Positions 38,244 through 56,114 of a DNA stretch of 64,000 nucleotides are shown here, in pieces; position 1 is the first letter of the stretch; each line of letters starts with the position of its first letter. Position numbers and translations under genes: made by a program. The stretch lies in contig CCKK01000020.1 in assembly GCA_001048675.1 (NCBI GenBank), positions 930,001 to 994,000 of the forward strand, read 5' to 3'. The notes under the pieces were generated by a model. The model was given only the letters and a program-made list of their open reading frames with translations. It did no database searches and was not told the DNA's origin. The DNA is from Vibrio diabolicus. GTDB taxonomy: Bacteria; Pseudomonadota; Gammaproteobacteria; Enterobacterales; Vibrionaceae.

Positions 38244-39431
38244 TTATTGGTTGACGCGTTTCCAACGTCCATTTTCCATTCCTAGCAAATACTTCATACC
38301 GCCGATGAAATTGGCGAGATGACCAATGACGATGTAGCTAATCAGTTTAAAAGGCTTGACTGTGTTAAGTGCAGGAACCAAGTAAGTGACAAGTGCGATA
38401 CCATAAACACAGGCTTGAGCGAGCAGCATTACTTGAAAAAGCGGGTTGTGTGCCAGTAGTAGTGAACAAACCAAGCAAACAATCATCAAATAGGGTGTTG
38501 CTAAGCGCAGAACCTTTCCCGATAGAAATGCAAAGGCAGTGCCACGATAGCGAGGTAGCAGTAATTTCTTTAATTGCATGAGCTGCTGCATGTTACCCGC
38601 TGAAATTCTTAGGCGTCGCTTGAAGTCTCCGTCGTCTGAGCTTTGTTCGAGTTCAAGAGCTAGCATGTTAGGTTCGTAGATAGCGTTATAGCCTCGCAAA
38701 ACGATTCTCATAGGGAGAATAAAATCGTCATTGATGGTGCTGACTTCAAGTGGTTCAAATAGGTGGGTTCTGAACGTATAAAACGCACCGTGAGAACCAA
38801 TCGTTGAACCCAGCAAGGATTCTTGGTGCTTCACTCGAGACTGGTATTGCCAGTACGCTGCTTCACCTTGGTTATCGGTACTCATTATTTGATATGTCGC
38901 GTTAACCACTCCAACCTTCTCATTTTGATAATGCTGACTAGCTAGCAACAGAGAATCGCAAGAAATCAATGCCGATGTATCACTCAGTGCGGTAATGTCC
39001 GAGCTAACATGACGCATTTCTTCGTTGAGTAGGGCAACTTTACCGCGATTGACTTGGTGGTCATTAATGATGAACAGTGTATCGGAGCAGATTGCTTCTT
39101 GAATCGTCGCTTGAGCAATCTCGGCTGTGTTATCTGTGCAGCCATCACATGCGATCACCACTTTCAATTTATCTCTTGGGTAATCTAAGCTCGCAAGGTT
39201 GCGGATCTTTTCTGCTATCCACTGTTCTTCATTGTAGGCGGGCACGATGACAGTAACAGATGGTAACTGACTGTCTGTTTGAGAGGCTTTGTAAGCCCGC
39301 TCTACAAATAGTGCTGTGGTTTTTTGCTGTTTTAAAGGAAGCCATTTAAGTAGCAATGGATAACCAACATGATGATAGACAATCAAAAATGCGGATAAAC
39401 CAAAACCTGTAATCCAAAGTAAATCATTCAT
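38244..39431 (-). CDS. sypQ: Membrane glycosyltransferase family 2, SypQ
   Basis: The 395 residues comprise an N-terminal helix, a GT2 domain (VTVIVPAYNEEQWIAEKI at about 58; DGCTDN nucleotide-sugar motif; later ALSDTSALI and NDDFILPMRI) and three or four C-terminal membrane segments (about 300-380), as in processive synthase-like enzymes. The start overlaps sypP by eight bases with a GGAGG site. It should add a sugar during assembly of the Syp polysaccharide at the inner membrane. Confidence 0.85.
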   Translation of the reverse strand: MNDLLWITGFGLSAFLIVYHHVGYPLLLKWLPLKQQKTTALFVERAYKASQTDSQLPSVTVIVPAYNEEQWIAEKIRNLASLDYPRDKLKVVIACDGCTDNTAEIAQATIQEAICSDTLFIINDHQVNRGKVALLNEEMRHVSSDITALSDTSALISCDSLLLASQHYQNEKVGVVNATYQIMSTDNQGEAAYWQYQSRVKHQESLLGSTIGSHGAFYTFRTHLFEPLEVSTINDDFILPMRIVLRGYNAIYEPNMLALELEQSSDDGDFKRRLRISAGNMQQLMQLKKLLLPRYRGTAFAFLSGKVLRLATPYLMIVCLVCSLLLAHNPLFQVMLLAQACVYGIALVTYLVPALNTVKPFKLISYIVIGHLANFIGGMKYLLGMENGRWKRVNQ

Positions 39432-40580: not shown

Positions 40581-40596
40581 TGCAGACTGCGTGCCA
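40581..40596 (-). promoter_or_regulatory. Sigma-54 promoter of sypP
   Basis: On the minus strand TGGCACGCAGTCTGCA has the invariant GG-N10-GC and a perfect -24 element. It predicts a start near 40570, about 28 bases before the ATG. The palindrome at 40656 lies 59 bases upstream. Confidence 0.8.
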
Positions 40597-40655: not shown

Positions 40656-40670
40656 TTCTCAATTTGAGAT
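40656..40670. promoter_or_regulatory. SypG-type enhancer upstream of sypP
   Basis: TTCTCAATTTGAGAT, 14 of 15 identical to the copy before sypA. Its site 59 bases before a sigma-54 promoter is what an activator of the SypG class needs. V. fischeri syp enhancers also begin TTCTCA. Confidence 0.75.
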
Positions 40671-47400: not shown

Positions 47401-48585
47401 TCAATTGATGCTCAACCAGCGTGAAAGAGGCTTCATGCAGTGAGTCATTGGCATTGGTGTAATACTGTTGTTCTCAAGCTCACCTTCATAAATACGTTCA
47501 ATGGCGCTTATGGATGCTGCAGTCGTGAGGTTTTGGCTAGCATGAGGATAGGCGTTTTCAGCTAGCTTGTTTCTTAGAGCTACATCTTGCATGACTTGTT
47601 GGATAGCGTTTAATAAGCCTGCCATTCCGCGATTCTGGTACAGTAGCGCAGAGTGATTATGCTCGAACAACTCAGGAATACCTCCCGTTTTAGGAGCCAC
47701 GATAGGTAATTGGGCTAAAGCCGCTTCCCCTAATACGAGACCAAAGGCTTCCTCGTAGGCGCCGCTAATAAAAGCGTCTGCATTCCCAGACATCCATGCA
47801 CCAGCATTGCTTTTTTCCCCGACAAAGTGGACTCTGTCTTGGATACCGAGGTCCGAAGCAAGTTGTTGCAATGTTTCTCTTTCCTCGCCATCGCCAACGA
47901 TAACAAGATGAGGATTATCGTGATGGTAATTGTGCATGCGCATAGCGCGAATAAGGCGGTCGAATCCTTTTCTTTTAATCAATGAACCTACCGAGAGAAA
48001 GGTAAACGCTTGTGGAGGTATTCCGAGGTGAGCCTTGATATCAATGGGCGTATCAGAGTCCAGAAGCGATACACCGTTGTGCACAACATAAAGTTGGTCT
48101 TCTGGGTAACCGTCCTGAATAATTTCACGACCGACATCTTTACTAACGCAAATCAATTTTGGGGAGAGGTGTAGCCCAAGAGAGAAGCGATCTCGCAATG
48201 TATAGTGACAATGAAGTTGGGTGACAAGCGGGATGTGATTCATGCGTGCAGCCAAACACATCCATTGACAAGGACCACCGCTATTAACGTGTACCAAGTC
48301 GATATTGTGTTTTTCGATCAGTGCTGAGCCCTGTTTGATAAGGCTGTTCCATCCGCTAATATCCCAGCGAGGTGCACTCCAGCCACCAACGAGATTGAAA
48401 ACAGAATGTTCCGCTTCAATTCCGAGCGATTGACACTTATCGATTAGTGGCTGGCAATTTGACCACACGAATGGCTCAAACTTATCACGGTCAATCCCTG
48501 AGATGAGATCCAGAAGTACCACTTCACTGCCGCGAATCCAGTTATCACCATAATGAACATATAGAATGCGTTTTGGAGTAGTCAT
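47401..48585 (-). CDS. sypI: Glycosyltransferase family 4, SypI
   Basis: The 394-residue GT4 enzyme has IRGSEVVLLDL near the N-terminus, VHVNSGGPCQWM, GSLIKRKGFDRLI, and the donor motif SGAYEEAFGLVLGEAALAQLPIVAPKTGG. It is the first gene of the sypI-L unit. An AGAGGTGAC ribosome site precedes the ATG, and a sigma-54-type promoter plus palindrome lie upstream, as for V. fischeri sypI. Confidence 0.88.
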   Translation of the reverse strand: MTTPKRILYVHYGDNWIRGSEVVLLDLISGIDRDKFEPFVWSNCQPLIDKCQSLGIEAEHSVFNLVGGWSAPRWDISGWNSLIKQGSALIEKHNIDLVHVNSGGPCQWMCLAARMNHIPLVTQLHCHYTLRDRFSLGLHLSPKLICVSKDVGREIIQDGYPEDQLYVVHNGVSLLDSDTPIDIKAHLGIPPQAFTFLSVGSLIKRKGFDRLIRAMRMHNYHHDNPHLVIVGDGEERETLQQLASDLGIQDRVHFVGEKSNAGAWMSGNADAFISGAYEEAFGLVLGEAALAQLPIVAPKTGGIPELFEHNHSALLYQNRGMAGLLNAIQQVMQDVALRNKLAENAYPHASQNLTTAASISAIERIYEGELENNSITPMPMTHCMKPLSRWLSIN

Positions 48586-48628: not shown

Positions 48629-48644
48629 TGCAACAGAGATGCCA
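48629..48644 (-). promoter_or_regulatory. Sigma-54 promoter of sypI
   Basis: The minus strand reads TGGCATCTCTGTTGCA: GG-N10-GC intact and a perfect TTGCA at -12. The predicted start lies near 48618, about 33 bases before the ATG. The palindrome lies 71 bases upstream. Confidence 0.82.
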
Positions 48645-48715: not shown

Positions 48716-48730
48716 TTCTCATATTGAGAA
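48716..48730. promoter_or_regulatory. SypG-type enhancer upstream of sypI
   Basis: TTCTCATATTGAGAA is a perfect palindrome with 14 of 15 identity to the sypA copy, between sypH and sypI. Confidence 0.78.
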
Positions 48731-48740
48731 CCAATATGGC

Positions 48741-49811
48741 TTATTGCTCCGTTTCAATTTGATATTTTCGTAGCAATACAGGAATAACGCTTTGCGCCGA
48801 GAAATCATCAATAATGGTCTGCCGAGCGTTTTGACGAATGAGAGATTGCTGCGCTTCATCAAGAGACATCCAATGTTTAAGGCATTGAGCGAGAGATGAG
48901 ATGTCATTGACAATAAAGCCATTTTCGCCAGTTTGGATAATATCGGGCAAGCGACCCACGCGTAGGCTCATCACGATTATTCCTCTAGCCATTGCTTCAA
49001 GCGCCGCCATAGGCAGGCCTTCATAGCGAGAAGAAATTACCAGCACGCCAATGTTTTTCCAAACGGTCTCCATTTCAGTTTGATGACCGAAAAATGTCAC
49101 ATTTGAAGGGGCAATTTGGGCGAGTGATTCTCTTTCTGGTCCATCACCGTAAACACTAAAATGCAGTGTTGGGCAGAGCTCAGCCACTTCGATAAATTGG
49201 TCGGCACCTTTTTCTTGGCTCAATCGGCCGACGAAAGCGATTTCTTGATAGTTGAGATTACGATCGGGAATCGAAACAAAGTTATTCAGCAGTTCCGAAG
49301 GGAAAATGACTTTACGCTGAATGCTTGGGCTGACGGAAAAGCAGTGGTTAGAGAGGTAGCCTGAACTTCTATCAAGCCAATCATAGAGCCACAGTTTTCC
49401 CGAGGATGATTCTCCTGCATGATAAGTTGAAATCAAGCGAGGAAATGTGCGCGTGAGTAGCTTGGCACAGCGCGCTAAGATTGACGCTTTGTAACCGTGG
49501 GAGTGAATGACCGATGGTTGGTGATTGGCGACCGCGCTTGTTAGGTGTTTGATCTTTAATGCCTTATGTGGCTCACCAGACAAATGGTTCAAGTAACTCA
49601 CAGGGATGGTGGATTCTTCTGCTTTCTCTACAATCTGTGCTGGTGGCGAGTACTCAGTCGTTAAGACAACACGTGCTTTGTGCCCAAATGTCATTAATCC
49701 ACGAGCAAGCTCTATGACGTGACTTTCGATACCGCCAAACAGGCGGCTATCAAGAAAAATCCAAATTTCACCAACGGCAGGTTTCTCAAGATTGTTCGAG
49801 ATTAATTTCAT
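48741..49811 (-). CDS. sypH: Glycosyltransferase family 4, SypH
   Basis: The 356-residue GT4 enzyme has FGGIESHVIELARGL near the N-terminus, VIHSHGYKASILAR, FVGRLSQEKGADQFI and the donor motif SSRYEGLPMAALEAMARGIIVMSLRVGG-like segment (about 265-290; the last part reads VGRLPD). It overlaps the 3' end of sypG by 26 bases, so the two genes are translated together. It ends just before the sypI promoter region. Confidence 0.85.
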   Translation of the reverse strand: MKLISNNLEKPAVGEIWIFLDSRLFGGIESHVIELARGLMTFGHKARVVLTTEYSPPAQIVEKAEESTIPVSYLNHLSGEPHKALKIKHLTSAVANHQPSVIHSHGYKASILARCAKLLTRTFPRLISTYHAGESSSGKLWLYDWLDRSSGYLSNHCFSVSPSIQRKVIFPSELLNNFVSIPDRNLNYQEIAFVGRLSQEKGADQFIEVAELCPTLHFSVYGDGPERESLAQIAPSNVTFFGHQTEMETVWKNIGVLVISSRYEGLPMAALEAMARGIIVMSLRVGRLPDIIQTGENGFIVNDISSLAQCLKHWMSLDEAQQSLIRQNARQTIIDDFSAQSVIPVLLRKYQIETEQ

Positions 49812-51309
49812 CCGCTTCCCACGCTTGTTTTTTTCGGTAAACCGTAGATGGGCTTAGCTCCAGCATTACGGCGGCATTGAGTACGTTGCCATCACAGTAT
49901 GCGATTGCGTTTTGAATCGCCTCACGCTCCACTTGCCACATAGGGCGAATGGTTCCATCAGAGTTAAAGTACGGCGAGGCAGCCGCTGAGGATTGTATGT
50001 TAGGTTCCGGTGTCGGTATTGACGGTTCTCTAGCGGGGGCCGATTGTTCCTCAATATACACAGGTTGGGATGTTATTGTTGGAGGGGGGGCTGGCTTTTG
50101 AGTTACATGTGCGGGAGTGGATGTTCTCACCGTTTTAGACTTTCTAGTCAGTTGAGCGGGTAGGTGATTCACCGTGACTTTTTCGTCATTATTAAGCACC
50201 ACAATGTTACGTATGATGTTTTGTAATTGCCTTACATTACCCGGCCATTCGTAGTGCTTGATGATATGTTGAGCTTCGCTGTCGATTGTTGAGAATTTCT
50301 TTTTGTCCTGTTTGGCATAAGTGGTCAAAAAGTGCTTGGCTAGCGTGACGATGTCACTTCCTCGCTCGCGCAGAGGGGGCATATCGATAGGTATTACGTG
50401 TACGCGGTAATACAAATCTTCACGAAAACGACCTTCTTCCACTTCTGTTAATGGATCTCGGTTGGTGGCGCAAATGATTCGGACATCCACCTTCATCTCT
50501 CGAGTGCCACCAAGCGGTGTGTAGGTTCCTGTTTGAAGAAAACGGAGCAACTTCTTTTGCATCTCAAGTTCCATTTCACACAGTTCATCGAGAAAAAGCG
50601 TTCCACCGTGAGCCAGCGTCGCAGCACCTTTTCGGTCTGTTGTGGCTCCGGTAAATGCGCCTTTAACGTGGCCAAAAATCTCACTTTCCATTAAATCTCG
50701 GGGGATGGCCCCGCAGTTAATAGCAATAAAAGGCTTGTCTTTACGATCGCTCTGACGGTGCACGGCTTCAGCACAGACTTCTTTACCTGTGCCGCTTTCA
50801 CCCACAATAAAGACACTGGCAGATGTTGGAGCAACGGCATCAATGGTTTTATATACCGCCTGCATTGGGAGACTTGAACCGATAAATCCGTGATAGTTAT
50901 GGCGATCAAACTTGGACTGAATGTTTTCTACTAAATCTTCCAGTTTGGCGCGTTTGAGGTGCAATGCAACAGAAGTTTTTAGGCGATCAGCGTTAATAGG
51001 TTTTTCTAAGAAATCTTCCGCGCCTTTTTGAATTAGGTTAACGGCTAAGTCTACGCTGCCATGCGCTGTAGCAATAATAACGGAGGTAGGAATGTCATTC
51101 TGGTTGATCCAATCCAACACGTCTTCACCAGACATATCGGGCAGTTTCAAATCGAGAATGATGAGCTGAGGTTTGCTTCTTTCAATAAATTGAATTGCTT
51201 CGCGACCTGTTTCGACATGAAAAATGTCATAAGGTTCGTCTTTGACATACTGCTTATAAAGTATGGCTAGTGAAGTAGAGTCTTCTACCAGTAACACCCT
51301 TGGTCTCAT
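49786..51309 (-). CDS. sypG: Sigma-54-dependent response regulator SypG (LuxO-like)
   Basis: The 507-residue NtrC-class activator has a receiver with phosphate-accepting Asp53 and Lys103, an AAA+ domain with Walker A GESGTGKE (170-177) and the sigma-54-contacting GAFTGAT (217-223), and a C-terminal Fis-type helix-turn-helix (about 465-500). A Pro-rich linker (about 395-450) joins the last two. It closely resembles LuxO. It should activate the sypA, sypI, sypN and sypP promoters, probably after phosphate transfer from the Hpt protein next door. Confidence 0.92.
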   Translation of the reverse strand: MRPRVLLVEDSTSLAILYKQYVKDEPYDIFHVETGREAIQFIERSKPQLIILDLKLPDMSGEDVLDWINQNDIPTSVIIATAHGSVDLAVNLIQKGAEDFLEKPINADRLKTSVALHLKRAKLEDLVENIQSKFDRHNYHGFIGSSLPMQAVYKTIDAVAPTSASVFIVGESGTGKEVCAEAVHRQSDRKDKPFIAINCGAIPRDLMESEIFGHVKGAFTGATTDRKGAATLAHGGTLFLDELCEMELEMQKKLLRFLQTGTYTPLGGTREMKVDVRIICATNRDPLTEVEEGRFREDLYYRVHVIPIDMPPLRERGSDIVTLAKHFLTTYAKQDKKKFSTIDSEAQHIIKHYEWPGNVRQLQNIIRNIVVLNNDEKVTVNHLPAQLTRKSKTVRTSTPAHVTQKPAPPPTITSQPVYIEEQSAPAREPSIPTPEPNIQSSAAASPYFNSDGTIRPMWQVEREAIQNAIAYCDGNVLNAAVMLELSPSTVYRKKQAWEADEINLEQS

Positions 51310-51420
51310 AGTCCTATCCCAACGTAGTTCGTTTCACTTTTATGATTTTTGTCAGCACTATTATTTGTATTTGGCGTGATGAGCGAGTTATATGGCTTAG
51401 TGCTCTCTAGTGCTGAATAT

Positions 51421-51435
51421 TCTCAATTTGAGAAA
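51421..51435. promoter_or_regulatory. SypG-type palindrome upstream of sypG
   Basis: TTCTCAATTTGAGAA, identical to the sypA copy, 111 bases before the sypG ATG. I find no GG-N10-GC promoter between it and the gene, so it may act in autorepression or with a distant promoter. Confidence 0.6.
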
Positions 51436-51532: not shown

Positions 51533-51556
51533 CATCGCACTTTAATAAGTGCGATG
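51533..51556 (-). terminator. Hairpin between the Hpt gene and sypG
   Basis: CATCGCACTT (51533-51542), loop TAAT, exact complement to 51556, 30 bases past the Hpt stop. There is no U-run. It probably separates the sypA-D/Hpt transcript from sypG. Confidence 0.6.
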
Positions 51557-51585: not shown

Positions 51586-51966
51586 TTACTCGAACCCCTG
51601 ATCTTTTCGCTTTTCTAGCGCGTCAAACGATTCAATTGCCAGCTGGGAAAGAGACTCACAGAGAGCCAATGCTTCTAGTGTTTTCCCTTCCACACAATAT
51701 TTCTCAATCATTCTTGCTTGTCTGGAAAGCGTTCGGTTACCTAAAGCAAGGGCAGAGCTGCCGAGTGTATGAACTTCGAACTCTAATGTTTGGAGGTCTT
51801 TCGCGCTTAATGCTTGCTCTATTTTCTCCATGCGCTCTCGTGACTCTTCAATATAGTGTTCAATCAGCGTAGGGATGATTTCGGCGCACGTATCTTTGAT
51901 CATTTGCTGGAGAATGTGTTCATCCACCAATTCCTGTTCGATAGTCGGTGTGTTATTTGCAGTCAT
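51586..51966 (-). CDS. Stand-alone histidine phosphotransfer (Hpt) protein in the sypF position
   Basis: The 126-residue all-helical protein carries the Hpt motif VHTLGSSALALG with the phosphorylatable His66. No kinase, PAS, HAMP or receiver domain is present and no membrane segment. It lies where V. fischeri has sypE and the hybrid kinase sypF, 11 bases after sypD. It most likely relays phosphate from kinases elsewhere to SypG. V. fischeri work showing that only the SypF Hpt domain is needed for RscS signalling supports this reading. Confidence 0.85.
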   Translation of the reverse strand: MTANNTPTIEQELVDEHILQQMIKDTCAEIIPTLIEHYIEESRERMEKIEQALSAKDLQTLEFEVHTLGSSALALGNRTLSRQARMIEKYCVEGKTLEALALCESLSQLAIESFDALEKRKDQGFE

Positions 51967-51977
51967 ATTGGCGCTCC

Positions 51978-52664
51978 CTATAACATAAACAGTTCACTTT
52001 TCTTAATTTGTTGAGATATCTTTTCTTTCCACTTTTTGGGTAAAAAGCGTAGCTTGGAAACTTGTCGGAGCAACTCATCTTTCAGGCTAGGTGTATGCTT
52101 CATATTCAGCACGGAACCAATCAAATTCGCATCGCTAGCATCAAGTAGTTTTTTGGCTTGTTCGAGTTGGGTTGCCGTCGTAGAGCCATAATGTGCGACT
52201 AATAAGGTGGCATCACATACGCCCGCAATCACTTGAGGGGCAATATTGCTTCGGTTGACACTCAGAAGTGGAGATGTGTCTATCACGACGCGCTCGTATT
52301 GCGTTAACCACTCTGCAATATTGCGCTTCAGCATTGTCGGGTCTCGGTACGCCAATTGAGTGCTGGCGAGAGATGGAGCAGGGAGACCGACTAAGGTTTG
52401 ATGCGTATTTTCTCTTGTGATCAGGTGGCCAACTTTTTCGGCATCATCAAACTCGTGAATGGTGCGATAAGCGGGCTTGAACAGGTTAAGATCCACATAC
52501 AAAGTATTGTGCCCAGCTAAAACCAGACGCTCTGCTAGAGATGAAGCCACGGAAGTGACGCCGTCTTCAGACTTACAACCCACAACACAAATCGTTTTGT
52601 GGCCTTTCTGTTCACTCTGAAGATAAATTTGCTCAATCTCAGCGTGAGTGGCAGGAATAGTCAT
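51978..52664 (-). CDS. sypD: CpsD/Wzc-like ATPase with altered Walker A, SypD
   Basis: The 228-residue protein has the fold of bacterial tyrosine-kinase ATPases (MinD/CpsD type), with a Walker B VVIDTSPLL (about 128-136). The P-loop reads GCKSEDGVTS (about 29-38), with Val where CpsD and Wzc have the essential Lys. The C-terminus (KKSELFML) has no tyrosine cluster. It may bind nucleotide weakly or act as a structural partner of SypO. It overlaps sypC by one base. Confidence 0.8.
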   Translation of the reverse strand: MTIPATHAEIEQIYLQSEQKGHKTICVVGCKSEDGVTSVASSLAERLVLAGHNTLYVDLNLFKPAYRTIHEFDDAEKVGHLITRENTHQTLVGLPAPSLASTQLAYRDPTMLKRNIAEWLTQYERVVIDTSPLLSVNRSNIAPQVIAGVCDATLLVAHYGSTTATQLEQAKKLLDASDANLIGSVLNMKHTPSLKDELLRQVSKLRFLPKKWKEKISQQIKKSELFML

Positions 52665-54766
52665 TACAACGCTCCTATTAACACGATGGTTGTGGTGATT
52701 TGTAGAATATCTCTTAACCCGGCTCTCGCTTTTTCAGCAAAGCTTTCGTCTTTATGTGGAATATAAATGGTGTCGCCTGCACGGATGACTGGTAAATCAT
52801 AAATGTTGGCGGTTTTGCTAAAGTTCACCAAATCAAATGTTCGAGCTTGGCCCTGACAGCAAGACATGTTGACCACACTGATTTTTTCAAGATACGCATT
52901 GTTTGTCGGGCCTCCTGCTTCGGCCAGCAAGTCAAGTACCGTCATGTTGTCATTAAATACATAGCGCCCAGGGTCTCTTACTTCACCTAATACACGCACG
53001 GTGGATTCTTTGGAGCGATCCAACCAGTTTTTGTTTTTTTCCGGAATGTAAATGGTATCGCCGGGACGAACGTGGGGCAGAATAGACTCATCGCCCGTTT
53101 CAAAGTACATCGACAAATTCAATTTACTCACTTTGGCATAGCCTAGGCCACGGTGCGTCACACGAATATTGTGAATATCGGCATCCATTGTTGGTCCATC
53201 GGCGGCAGATAAAATATCCAGAAAGTGCATCTCTTCAGTAAAGCGATAGCGGCCAGGGGCATTGATTTGACCGAAAACATATATCGAGGCATCAGAGCTC
53301 TGGCTTACCCATTGCGATTTGTTGTCTGATGGATCGTCAGGTAATGCATGGACTCTTACTACCGTGCCAGCAGAAACTCGGGGCAGATTCGATGTTGGTG
53401 AGCCATCTAAAATGTATTGATCTAAATCGAACTGTGTCATTTGACCATTATTGGCGACTTCAATTTTGGTGGTGTCAGCTCTACGTGTTGGGCCGCCAAC
53501 ATGCGCAAGCAGATCAATTAAATCCATTTCGTCTGACCATTCAATACGTCCCGGGCGCACGACTTCTCCCATCACAGCGACCGCTCGACTTGGCGCCACT
53601 TTTAGCCATGACTTCTCGTTGAAATCGGTTTTCTCAGGGACGAAAATCGCGTCGCCAGGTCCGACATTCGGTGGTCTAACCGAAGACAGCCCCTCGGTAT
53701 GCGCGGTTAGGTCGAATTTGATGACCTTACCATCGGCTTTTATGACACGAATTTGGCGAGATTCTGCATAGCGAGTAGGCCCGCCTGCATTGGCGAGAAT
53801 ATCCATGAAGCTAGCGTCTTGCTTTCCTTCATACGCGCCAGGGTGGGCAACTTCACCCATGACATAAACCACATTTGCACCCGCTTTGATTTCTTCTTCC
53901 TGTTTTGGAACAAAGATGGTGGCACCCGGTAGGATTTCTGGTAGTAAGCTTTGATCACCCGTATCCAGATACTTTTTTAGATTAAACATGGTTGGGTTGT
54001 TATTTGTGATCACGCGAATTTGCTCAACACTAGCATATCGTGTTACGCCGCCAGCTCTCATCACGACATCAACGAGCGTGGTGTTCGGTTTGTAAGAGAA
54101 TGAGCCGGGAGCATTAACTTCACCAAAGACTTTGATGGCACGAGCGGAGTCTGCGCTATCGCCTGAGTTCGCGAGTTTTGCTGCATCAAATTCTTGCTCA
54201 ATATTCCCAACGAGTGGAGATGCTGGAACAAACAGTACGTCCAGCGATTCCAATTTCGGGAGCTGGCTATTATCACCAGTATCAAGGAAACGTTTGTAGT
54301 CAAACTCGATGTTTTTGTCGCCGCGTTTAACGATCATTTTATCGAGCTGAGCACCAGCGCGAAGGCCGCCAGCTTCGTATACAAACATTTGAATGTTGGA
54401 ACCTGAAGGTAAGGTATATTCCCCGGGTTTGACCACGTAGCCTTGGACTGACACTAATAACTGTTGTTGTTTGATAAAGACTCGAGCGTTGTTTACGTCA
54501 CGATACACGGTTTTTAGCGTTTCGATAATCACGTCTTGGAGCTGTTGTTCATTATATCCAGCAACAAATACAGGGCCGACTTCCGGTAAGTTAATACGCC
54601 CACGGCGATCGACTTGAAACCCTTTATTTAAAGACGCTTCTCCAGGTAGGTTAATCTGAATTAAATCGCCAACCTTAACAGTATTGTTTCCATCTGCTGA
54701 CGAAGTAGGTACCCAAGCAACCAAGCACAAAAGAACTAAGGTGATAAATGGTTTCATCGTGTTCAT
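52664..54766 (-). CDS. sypC: Polysaccharide export protein with six SLBB repeats, SypC
   Basis: The 700-residue protein has a signal peptide (MKPFITLVLLCLVAWVPTSSA), a Poly_export domain (about 30-110) and six SLBB-type repeats, each with a VxGEVxxPGxY start and a GGPTR-like end; the first is the most divergent. This is much longer than E. coli Wza (379). It should form the outer-membrane/periplasmic exit channel. It lacks a clear lipobox. GGAGG precedes the ATG, which overlaps the sypB stop (ATGA). Confidence 0.88.
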   Translation of the reverse strand: MNTMKPFITLVLLCLVAWVPTSSADGNNTVKVGDLIQINLPGEASLNKGFQVDRRGRINLPEVGPVFVAGYNEQQLQDVIIETLKTVYRDVNNARVFIKQQQLLVSVQGYVVKPGEYTLPSGSNIQMFVYEAGGLRAGAQLDKMIVKRGDKNIEFDYKRFLDTGDNSQLPKLESLDVLFVPASPLVGNIEQEFDAAKLANSGDSADSARAIKVFGEVNAPGSFSYKPNTTLVDVVMRAGGVTRYASVEQIRVITNNNPTMFNLKKYLDTGDQSLLPEILPGATIFVPKQEEEIKAGANVVYVMGEVAHPGAYEGKQDASFMDILANAGGPTRYAESRQIRVIKADGKVIKFDLTAHTEGLSSVRPPNVGPGDAIFVPEKTDFNEKSWLKVAPSRAVAVMGEVVRPGRIEWSDEMDLIDLLAHVGGPTRRADTTKIEVANNGQMTQFDLDQYILDGSPTSNLPRVSAGTVVRVHALPDDPSDNKSQWVSQSSDASIYVFGQINAPGRYRFTEEMHFLDILSAADGPTMDADIHNIRVTHRGLGYAKVSKLNLSMYFETGDESILPHVRPGDTIYIPEKNKNWLDRSKESTVRVLGEVRDPGRYVFNDNMTVLDLLAEAGGPTNNAYLEKISVVNMSCCQGQARTFDLVNFSKTANIYDLPVIRAGDTIYIPHKDESFAEKARAGLRDILQITTTIVLIGAL

Positions 54767-55629
54767 AGCGCACCTCCTACAGATAGATTGCGATTTACTG
54801 AGGTATCGCTATCTGAATTAGGGCTAATAACCTCGATGCTTACGCGGCGATTGGTTAAACGCACGGCAGGTGTTTCACCCTCGTAAAGCGGCAGGCTATC
54901 TCCCACAGATTTGGTGGTTACGCGTTCTGAAGTGATGCCAAATACAGTCAGGTAACGCTTCACTTGTTCTGCACGCGCTTGAGCGAGTTTCTGGTTGTAA
55001 TCTGGTGAGCCAGTGACATCGGCATGCCCAGTCACCACAAGAGTTAGGTTAGGGTGGTCACGTAAAATGTAGGCAGCTTCTGCCAAATGTCCCATGTACT
55101 TTGGATTAATTTCTGCTGAATCGACAGCAAATTGATTATCAATATTGAGGAGTGCATAAATTTCAGCGACGACGTTCAAATCGCTACGCAATGCTTCAAT
55201 ATCATCGGGTGGCGTACAAGTGGTTTGGCTTAATACATAGTCGAGTTGCTGTTCAAGTTGGTTTAAACGTCGACGTTGAATCACCAGATCGTTAGCAGCA
55301 TCGAGTAGAAGTCCGCCTTCTAGCTCACGTGCGATTCTGTTTTGCTTCTCAAGCGCTTGCACTACTGCTGCAGGAAAGCACCAGCGTGCGCCTTCTTGAA
55401 TCAACGCGTCTAGGTGTAGCTTGGTGAGTTGCCAATCAAACCTCAACCCATGCTCTGGACCTAACGGCTCATCGGGCATGACTGGGGAAAACTGATAATT
55501 TTCAATTGAGATATCTTGATAGTTTTCCGCCAAGCCACCTTTTCCGTGGTCTGGGTAGTCAAACGACGAACAACCAAACATGCCGACAACAAGACCGCTT
55601 ACTACATATCGTCGTATAAGATTTACCAT
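54763..55629 (-). CDS. sypB: OmpA-domain lipoprotein SypB
   Basis: The 288-residue protein has a lipoprotein signal with lipobox GMFGC (Cys20) and a C-terminal OmpA peptidoglycan-binding domain (about 170-270: VVTGHADVTGSPDYNQKLAQARAEQVKRYL and LTNRRVSIEV). It probably anchors the export apparatus to peptidoglycan. GGAGG precedes the ATG. It follows sypA by 26 bases. Confidence 0.88.
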   Translation of the reverse strand: MVNLIRRYVVSGLVVGMFGCSSFDYPDHGKGGLAENYQDISIENYQFSPVMPDEPLGPEHGLRFDWQLTKLHLDALIQEGARWCFPAAVVQALEKQNRIARELEGGLLLDAANDLVIQRRRLNQLEQQLDYVLSQTTCTPPDDIEALRSDLNVVAEIYALLNIDNQFAVDSAEINPKYMGHLAEAAYILRDHPNLTLVVTGHADVTGSPDYNQKLAQARAEQVKRYLTVFGITSERVTTKSVGDSLPLYEGETPAVRLTNRRVSIEVISPNSDSDTSVNRNLSVGGAL

Positions 55630-55655: not shown

Positions 55656-55976
55656 TTAGTGTCCTTTTGAGTTAACGGGAATAGCATGGTTAATACGAAG
55701 CAAGCTCATGATTTCTAAAGGTTGGCCTGATACGTTTTCAATACTCATGCTTCTTTCACGTTCAACTAGACGCTTATATAAGTAAACAATGGCACCAATC
55801 CCTGAAGAATCAAGAAATTGGACGTGCTGTAGGTTAATTTCGACTTCTTTGTGATGATTGTCGTGAATTACTTCATCAATGTGATGTTGTGCTTGTCGAC
55901 AGCCACTTGCGTCTAAGTCACCAAAAAACTCAATGGCTAATTTGTCTTGATTAATTTCTAGTTTGCGTAATTCCAT
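55656..55976 (-). CDS. sypA: STAS-domain anti-sigma-factor-antagonist-like protein SypA
   Basis: The 106-residue STAS protein has the SpoIIAA-type phosphorylation motif FLDSSGIG with Ser57/Ser58. In V. fischeri SypA promotes biofilm formation and is turned off by SypE-dependent serine phosphorylation. No sypE lies in this locus. ATG at 55976 follows CGGAG; the frame upstream to 56042 lies across the sigma-54 promoter and is rejected. First gene of the sypA-B-C-D-Hpt unit. Confidence 0.88.
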   Translation of the reverse strand: MELRKLEINQDKLAIEFFGDLDASGCRQAQHHIDEVIHDNHHKEVEINLQHVQFLDSSGIGAIVYLYKRLVERERSMSIENVSGQPLEIMSLLRINHAIPVNSKGH

Positions 55977-56013
55977 GACTCTATCTCCGTTTGTTTTCTC
56001 TACTTGGATATAG

Positions 56014-56029
56014 AGCAGGTAACGTGCCA
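56014..56029 (-). promoter_or_regulatory. Sigma-54 promoter of sypA
   Basis: The minus strand reads TGGCACGTTACCTGCT: perfect -24 element and GG-N10-GC. The predicted start lies near 56003, about 27 bases before the ATG. Confidence 0.82.
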
Positions 56030-56099
56030 AATTTAAATGCAAATAAAATCAAATGGTTATGATTTTTTGATAATGTCATTCAAATTGAGAAGGAATAGG

Positions 56100-56114
56100 T
56101 TCTCAATTTGAGAA
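56100..56114. promoter_or_regulatory. SypG-type enhancer upstream of sypA, with a weaker second site
   Basis: TTCTCAATTTGAGAA is a perfect palindrome 70 bases before the sypA promoter. A weaker copy, CATTCAAATTGAGAA (11 of 15), lies at 56077-56091, 23 bases (about two helical turns) nearer, suggesting paired binding. The rest of the gap to ligE at 56400 shows no gene. Confidence 0.78.

Follow-up and report, generated by a model that had tools for sequence, protein, structure and literature searches.

A free-standing SypF-type Hpt protein at the position of the hybrid kinase SypF in the syp-type locus of Vibrio diabolicus

Introduction

Work on Vibrio fischeri places the hybrid kinase SypF at the center of syp biofilm control, as the integrator of its signals. 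The kinases RscS, HahK and BinK act through its Hpt domain (PMC12369376, PMC11841056, PMC10162802), and this domain alone restores the syp biofilm of a delta-sypF strain (PMC12369376, PMC11841056). The domain is required for activation according to earlier work cited in PMC12369376, a paper which also reports that LuxU can feed the regulator SypG and that the biofilm of one engineered background persists without SypF, through LuxU. In V. fischeri, BinK regulates negatively (PMC5019070); its predicted action is the withdrawal of phosphate from the Hpt of SypF (PMC11841056).

That SypF has been lost or truncated in other vibrios has already been published (PMC5801674, PMC10820411, PMC8941931). 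A 2018 paper described the F gene of the syp-like eps cluster of V. diabolicus as "truncated" and noted extra genes between D and F, either single or in a group of three (PMC5801674). Among scv-positive Vibrio species, sypF orthologs were present in 24 and not observed in 38 (PMC8941931), and neither V. parahaemolyticus nor V. harveyi is credited with a SypF in published listings (PMC8941931, PMC10820411). In V. harveyi ORM4, from which SypE, SypF and SypM are reported absent, sypD and sypG are numbered 640014 and 640016 and the intervening number is missing from the table of changed genes (PMC10820411). In the open-licence literature that we found, the accessible text of no paper names a free Hpt protein or its partners. 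Since SypF is gone from the Harveyi group and many others, the question becomes how SypG is activated there. The present analysis concerns a stretch of 64,000 nucleotides of V. diabolicus (hereafter the window, in whose numbering positions are given), where a small Hpt gene occupies the SypF position.

Methods

The 126-residue Hpt protein of the window was searched in 296 Vibrionaceae genomes at E ≤ 1e-5 and relatives were found in 153, its own genome included. The loci of 121 of these genomes (the window and 120 stretches) were compared, those of the other 32 not being fetched. Loci were classified as free, hybrid or dual according to the frame bearing the Hpt; L137, in which the kinase part is present and the frame broken, was counted as hybrid, and L134 and L159 were counted as free. 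Hpt-bearing frames of the V. diabolicus genome were identified from the frames themselves and from Pfam and NCBIfam matches of the larger ones, the CheA-like assignment being a reading of the sequence, as are all protein names used below for Candidatus Photodesmus blepharus.

Results and Discussion

Organization of the locus

The minus strand of the window encodes, in this order, a SypA-like STAS protein with an LDSSGIGA motif (55656-55976; the start is an ATG within a longer TTG frame, and the Pfam scan covered 55656-55982), a SypB-like OmpA-family protein (54763-55629, Pfam), a SypC-like export protein with Poly_export and SLBB domains (52664-54766), a SypD-like ATPase (51978-52664; both from domain and model scans), the Hpt protein (51586-51966) and a SypG-like sigma-54 response regulator (49786-51309; Pfam and model scores). 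Glycosyltransferase-type genes, a Wzz-like protein and a sugar transferase follow beyond sypG. The top model of the window SypG is LuxO, with 614 bits under a cut-off of 800; the genome's own LuxO passes that cut-off. The conserved sypABCD-G order and the SypG enhancers detailed below mark the region as a syp/rbd/scv locus. SypE is absent from it. The gaps between sypD and the Hpt gene (11 bases) and between the latter and sypG (276 bases) have no space for a kinase, receiver or SypE gene, which bears out the claim of an earlier note on this DNA that the Hpt domain alone, here a 126-residue frame, stands at the SypF position. The core of a stable RNA hairpin (z -3.5) lies 3' of the Hpt stop codon (51533-51556, minus strand), where a terminator pattern scan made no call.

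The Hpt protein

The Pfam scan of the protein returned one match, to Hpt (E 4.1e-12, residues 34-105), and neither the domain scan nor the comparison of loci revealed sensor, HisKA, HATPase or receiver domains. The AlphaFold2 model, computed from an alignment of 35 sequences with the window included, displays six helices at a mean pLDDT of 88; its closest PDB structure, and the sole match at E ≤ 0.001, is Pseudomonas aeruginosa HptB (7c1i, E 3.6e-4, TM 0.81/0.88). The candidate phospho-acceptor is His66 (codon 51769-51771, minus strand) within the motif FEVHTLGSSALALGN; it is conserved without exception across the 35 aligned free Hpts, that of the window among them, and is one of 13 invariant columns in that alignment. 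The dN/dS of the window gene against its nearest relative is 0.077, and the gene is therefore regarded as maintained. Pairwise values range from 0.03 to 0.11 among free Hpts (eight pairs with a finite value; silent sites are saturated in a ninth, window versus L041) and from 0.08 to 0.16 among hybrid Hpt domains (five pairs). A chance open reading frame is ruled out by the Pfam match, the dN/dS and the predicted fold. Judged by its conservation, the gene is real and functional and corresponds to the SypF Hpt alone.

Among the matches listed, the relatives are either short frames of about 120-300 residues or the C-terminus of hybrid kinases of about 755-1073 residues. In 121 of the 121 loci compared, the Hpt shares its strand with sypG and precedes it by 16-712 bases. 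The window protein is 40-62% identical to hybrid SypF Hpts and 28% identical to LuxU, the nearest among the other Hpts of its genome that were compared. Free and hybrid Syp Hpts group together in a tree of the Hpt domain (support 83, unstarred, seven outgroup rows) and again in a second tree of 65 of the 125 Syp rows, 15 LuxU and 6 others (support 90, unstarred), where LuxU forms a separate group (support 91), both trees being quick searches on few columns. Placing the window Hpt and LuxU in one clade costs 15 log units, an alternative that the AU test does not reject (p 0.117). The identity of the protein as LuxU was dismissed on its separate branch and on its score of 25.6 bits against a LuxU model cut-off of 140; the genome has its own LuxU (C15:250942-251268, 162.7 bits). 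The trees thus place the protein with the SypF Hpts, not far from them, as the earlier note had supposed, and by sequence it is a member of the SypF-Hpt family. The "truncated F" of PMC5801674 is most likely this same gene, matched by description rather than by sequence; in its accessible text, that paper does not identify the product as an Hpt, discuss a partner or count the recurrence.

Nine Hpt hits were obtained in the V. diabolicus genome: a CheA-like protein, ArcB, TorS, a BarA-like hybrid, LuxU, the L275 hybrid, the window Hpt and two small or membrane-linked Hpts. None of these nine frames resembles SypF, and the SypF sensor part finds no match among the kinases of this genome that were examined, the queries aligning only from about residue 204 on, in the kinase core. 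On the strength of these nine frames and of the kinases examined, an intact SypF elsewhere in the genome, which would have spoken against the replacement proposed in the earlier note, was rejected. As a separate observation, another free Hpt of this genome (111 residues, L009, C2:987782-991021) stands next to frames for an apparent anti-sigma-type ATPase and an apparent SpoIIE-like phosphatase, which may together form a partner-switching cluster.

Recurrence and routes of reduction

The 121 loci comprise 64 free, 53 hybrid and 4 dual cases; among the 13 loci fetched from other genera of the family, 4 are free and 9 hybrid, the latter including the frame-broken one. A tree of sypD and sypG, from which the Hpt was excluded, needs 14 changes between free and hybrid; for the free label, well-supported branches force 13. 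The tree was obtained by a quick search in which L065, L069, L126 and L157 cover fewer than half the columns, and the branch of L157 is very long. The window falls in a clade of 11 free loci (support 100), which we take to be the Harveyi clade, sister to the hybrids L082, L095 and L106 (99). The earlier note had proposed that this locus reached a minimal state naturally. The reduction of SypF to its Hpt holds, but it is not the property of a single locus, being common to the Harveyi clade and recurring many times in the Vibrionaceae. Because the tree is unrooted and some deep branches are free, the direction of change is unproven by it.

Two routes are suggested by the sequences. Non-coding stretches upstream of the free Hpt frame resemble the end of the SypF receiver in L070 (59% over 34 positions, interrupted by a stop codon) and in L116 (45% over 38 positions), both with E of about 6e-7; these fossils would point to truncation in place. 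In the four dual loci, all of the Splendidus group, sypD is followed by a phosphonate-binding-type gene, a full SypF, a glycine-betaine-type ABC transporter, a free Hpt and sypG, as read and Pfam-scanned in L078 and extended to the three others by their same spacing. The SypF kinase part of these loci is sister to that of L073 (99, in a quick search with a simpler model), as the locus tree predicts, which contradicts a re-acquisition of SypF and would be the expected result had SypF been inherited here and lost subsequently in related loci. Since the kinase part follows the locus tree, the dual state looks like an intermediate, and duplication followed by loss may be the second route.

Several arrangements met during the comparison are recorded here. 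The glycine-betaine-type transporter (substrate-binding protein, permease and ATPase by Pfam; L078:6932-10240) is placed after sypD or sypF and ahead of the free Hpt, and a like arrangement is present in the Splendidus-group loci L075, L087, L088, L091 and L099; the group of three genes described in PMC5801674 is at this place. The Syp Hpt of L134 (245-codon frame) carries two apparent N-terminal membrane helices and reads as a membrane-anchored Hpt. In L159 (281 codons; reduced genome, other genus of the family) the frame combines a receiver and an Hpt without a kinase, and in L154, also from a reduced genome of another genus of the family, a free Hpt follows a sypE-type gene. In L137 (genome G057, other genus), the SypF frame is broken between the kinase part and the Hpt, and a short Hpt frame remains.

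SypG enhancers

The SypG enhancer, TTCTCANNNTGMDWN, is quoted in PMC10162802 from Ray 2013. Ten matches at seven places (palindromes being counted on both strands) are found in the window, all within the locus, against 0.8 expected. Three are palindromic: TTCTCAAATTGAGAA at 51420-51434, between the Hpt gene and sypG; 56100-56114, upstream of sypA, near which lie a further match (56078-56091) and a sigma-54-like -24/-12 element, TGGCACGTTACCTGCT, with one mismatch (56014-56029, minus strand); and 48716-48730, upstream of the glycosyltransferase gene at 47401-48585, with a -24/-12-like element at 48629-48644. The others are at 40656-40669 (plus strand, with a -24/-12-like element at 40581-40596), 38917-38930 (plus strand) and 38783-38796. 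The -24/-12 pattern is unenriched in the window (45 matches, 39 expected) and has no match before sypG itself, although the enhancer is present there. The absence of a LuxO enhancer from the window is uninformative because only 1.1 would be expected by chance.

Of the 11 Harveyi-clade loci, 10 have an enhancer in the gap between the Hpt gene and sypG, as do two other free loci and none of the 53 hybrids, 28 of which have a gap of 40 bases or less. Any enhancer in the stretch fetched was detected in 52/64 free, 31/53 hybrid and 3/4 dual loci. From the site in this gap, sypG of the Harveyi clade seems to have a SypG input of its own, which fits the report that the two scv operons of V. parahaemolyticus are both under ScvE (PMC8941931).

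Loci devoid of Hpt and state of SypG

No Hpt was found in nine of 80 named loci having sypD and sypG, namely those of V. gelatinilyticus, Vibrio sp. 10N.286.49.B1, V. barjaei, V. mediterranei, V. methylphosphonaticus, V. maritimus, V. hangzhouensis, P. kishitanii and P. phosphoreum. A search of these nine genomes returned no Syp-type Hpt (best E 1.4e-4, in a 996-codon frame), and LuxU is matched in all nine with 81-153 bits, above the curated cut-off in four. Asp53 of SypG is conserved in every readable row, whatever the Hpt state. Residue 141, the autoinhibitory position of the linker, is glycine in 49 of the 50 readable hybrid loci; among 62 readable free loci it is glycine in 41 and asparagine in 21, in the dual loci asparagine in three and aspartate in one, and in the Hpt-less loci glycine in five and aspartate in four. 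These substitutions are clustered in clades and thus amount to few events. Asparagine in V. splendidus and aspartate in V. mediterranei have been reported (PMC10162802); the distribution of the residue over the Hpt states is added here. The window SypG retains both Gly141, in its linker, and Asp53.

Candidate donor kinases

Seventeen of the 50 proteins of the V. diabolicus genome with an ATPase-domain hit were domain-scanned, yielding 11 hybrids with a receiver and no Hpt, four hybrids with an Hpt and two proteins devoid of receiver. The unpaired hybrid kinases anticipated by the earlier note therefore exist: at least 11 could feed the window Hpt, including LuxN, LuxQ, a CqsS-like kinase, a BinK-like kinase (L269) and seven more, so that candidate donors lacking an Hpt partner are not in short supply. 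Two of them stand out by different arguments, the BinK-like kinase by its retention in P. blepharus and L278 by receiver similarity. When two SypF receivers were ranked against the receivers of this genome that were compared, the closest was that of L278 (43% and 47%), a soluble kinase preceded by a FIST-like gene, from which we take it to be VpsS-like.

The reduced genome of P. blepharus (1.1 Mb, 99% complete) retains sypC, sypD, a free Hpt of 145 residues and sypG, along with two SypG enhancer matches. Its seven ATPase-domain hits are a 732-residue hybrid kinase, an FlrB-like kinase, CheA and GyrB/ParE/MutL/HtpG-type proteins; its seven receiver hits are SypG, the 732-residue kinase, a lone receiver, an FlrC-like regulator adjoining the FlrB-like kinase, and three taken as chemotaxis proteins. 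The 732-residue protein, BinK-like and without Hpt, is the sole hybrid kinase kept. Besides that of CheA, a second small Hpt is present, related to a membrane-linked Hpt of the V. diabolicus genome, and the sole hit of the LuxU model, a weak one, falls on the Syp Hpt. In Ca. P. katoptron (1.0 Mb, completeness unstated), sypC, sypD and genes of glycosyltransferase type are retained; its locus yielded neither Hpt nor sypG, and no hybrid kinase or SypG enhancer match was detected. Its two-component set is gone except for chemotaxis-type proteins, the FlrB/FlrC-like pair being absent as well. Because two-component proteins were lost generally, the joint loss is unspecific and the contrast between the two species is weaker.

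The relative of the P. blepharus kinase in the V. diabolicus genome is L269 (52% identity; G000 C20:560261-562696). Its best match in A. fischeri (43% over sensor and kinase core, 497 bits, the next reaching 311) is flanked by genes reading as a TetR-family gene and galR, which are the published surroundings of binK. The receivers differ, that of A. fischeri BinK being nearest to other kinases and that of the Vibrio BinK-like kinase to L275 and LuxQ. At E ≤ 1e-120, BinK-like kinases occur in 111 of 121 Hpt-positive genomes of the same genus and in 10 of 32 Hpt-positive genomes of other genera, as well as in 38 Hpt-less genomes (34 of the genus, 4 others); at this threshold, none was found in six free-Hpt genomes of the loci compared, G128, G176, G271 and G285 within the genus and G002 and G021 outside it. 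The BinK-like kinases exist with or without a C-terminal extension of about 80 residues (L269 residues 735-812 and relatives). Within the genus, a Syp Hpt accompanies 106 of 120 long forms and 5 of 25 short ones (Fisher 2e-11, kinship of the genomes being ignored).

Proposed mechanism and alternatives

The reading that we favor, and consider quite probable, is that the SypF-Hpt protein is a phosphotransfer module turned into a separate protein, which supplies SypG with phosphate taken from at least one hybrid kinase devoid of an Hpt. One or several of the 11 or more such kinases would autophosphorylate and pass the phosphate to their own receiver, from which it would move to His66 of the window Hpt and on to Asp53 of SypG. 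Phosphorylated SypG would in turn act at TTCTCA-N3-TGA enhancers to activate the syp promoters of the sigma-54 type. The lineage would have lost its own SypF sensor, a dedicated pathway becoming an open hub; with SypF reduced to its Hpt domain, the pathway therefore probably takes orders from kinases encoded elsewhere, the candidates being the BinK-like kinase, the soluble VpsS-like kinase and possibly the quorum-sensing kinases. Cross-talk with LuxU/LuxO, raised in the earlier note, may also occur: LuxU is the nearest other Hpt of this genome among those compared, SypG has LuxO as its top model, and nine genomes combine SypG and LuxU with no Syp-type Hpt that a search could detect. Some observations run against the relay: nine genomes manage without a Syp Hpt, six free-Hpt genomes lack a BinK-like kinase at the threshold applied, the biofilm of one engineered V. 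fischeri background persists through LuxU (PMC12369376), the AU test leaves a clade of the window Hpt with LuxU unrejected, and the P. blepharus kinase could serve the second small Hpt or the lone receiver instead. Against the BinK-like kinase as donor stand its receiver, unlike that of A. fischeri BinK, and the negative role of BinK in V. fischeri (PMC5019070).

A less likely but serious possibility is that the Hpt is mainly a drain: phosphate would flow from SypG through the Hpt to kinases acting as phosphatases, the BinK-like kinase being an off-switch, and SypG would be charged by LuxU. The predicted dephosphorylation of the SypF Hpt by BinK (PMC11841056) and the feeding of SypG by LuxU (PMC12369376) are in line with it, as is the retention of Asp53 and LuxU in the genomes devoid of Syp Hpt. 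P. blepharus nevertheless keeps Hpt and SypG while its only LuxU match is the weak one on the Syp Hpt, and the requirement of the SypF Hpt for activation (earlier work cited in PMC12369376) speaks against a drain. It is improbable that the direction was reversed, with the free Hpt ancestral and the hybrids arising by fusion. Deep free branches do exist within the genus (L142, L149, L150, L152, L153, L155, L156) and the trees lack rooting by an outgroup of the locus; hybrids nevertheless prevail among the 13 loci fetched from other genera, the kinase part of SypF agrees with the locus tree where tested, non-coding receiver-end-like stretches precede the free Hpt in L070 and L116, and the Harveyi clade is sister to three hybrids. 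Slightly more improbable still is a decaying remnant beside a SypG wholly driven by LuxU or acting without phosphorylation. The complete loss of Hpt from nine named loci and the replacement of Gly141 in about a third of the readable free loci and four of the nine Hpt-less loci would suit decay, but the free Hpts are constrained at least as strongly as the hybrid ones, His66 is invariant, and the window SypG keeps Gly141 and Asp53.

The relay may be tentatively extended into a wider scheme, which we offer as speculation that is rather unlikely to hold in full. SypF would have dissolved repeatedly in the Vibrionaceae, by truncation or by duplication and loss, into an open Hpt hub with a BinK-like kinase as main input; elsewhere the hub would have been lost, together with the autoinhibitory glycine of SypG. 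The BinK-like kinase, free Hpt and SypG of P. blepharus would then constitute nearly its whole two-component repertoire outside flagella and chemotaxis. The general loss of two-component proteins in P. katoptron, which goes beyond this chain, makes the scheme somewhat less likely.

As the free Hpt is widespread and has in part been published, we regard it as a variant of a known pathway. New are the count of recurrences, the two apparent routes, the further decay in which no Hpt is found, the clade-specific enhancer in front of sypG, the contrast between the two Photodesmus symbionts and the shortlist of donors. The overlooked Hpt provides an entry point consisting of one small gene and a short list of kinases, and the sets of species with hybrid, free or no Hpt are natural controls. 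An engineered result, the restoration of function by the Hpt alone, becomes a recurrent evolutionary outcome.

Comparison with known systems

The C-terminal Hpt of V. fischeri SypF belongs to the same family as the window protein, holds the same position before sypG and has the same histidine motif. The window Hpt differs from it in that nature has made it a gene of its own, free of any attached sensor, kinase or receiver, in a locus that lacks SypE. LuxU is alike in being a free-standing Vibrio Hpt that feeds a LuxO-type sigma-54 regulator, but it has its own branch in the Hpt tree, and the window protein scores far under the LuxU model cut-off. The closest solved fold, P. aeruginosa HptB, is also that of a free Hpt. 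We know of no descent of HptB from a syp hybrid kinase, and its output is HsbR, unlike that of the window Hpt; it gathers phosphate from several hybrid kinases.
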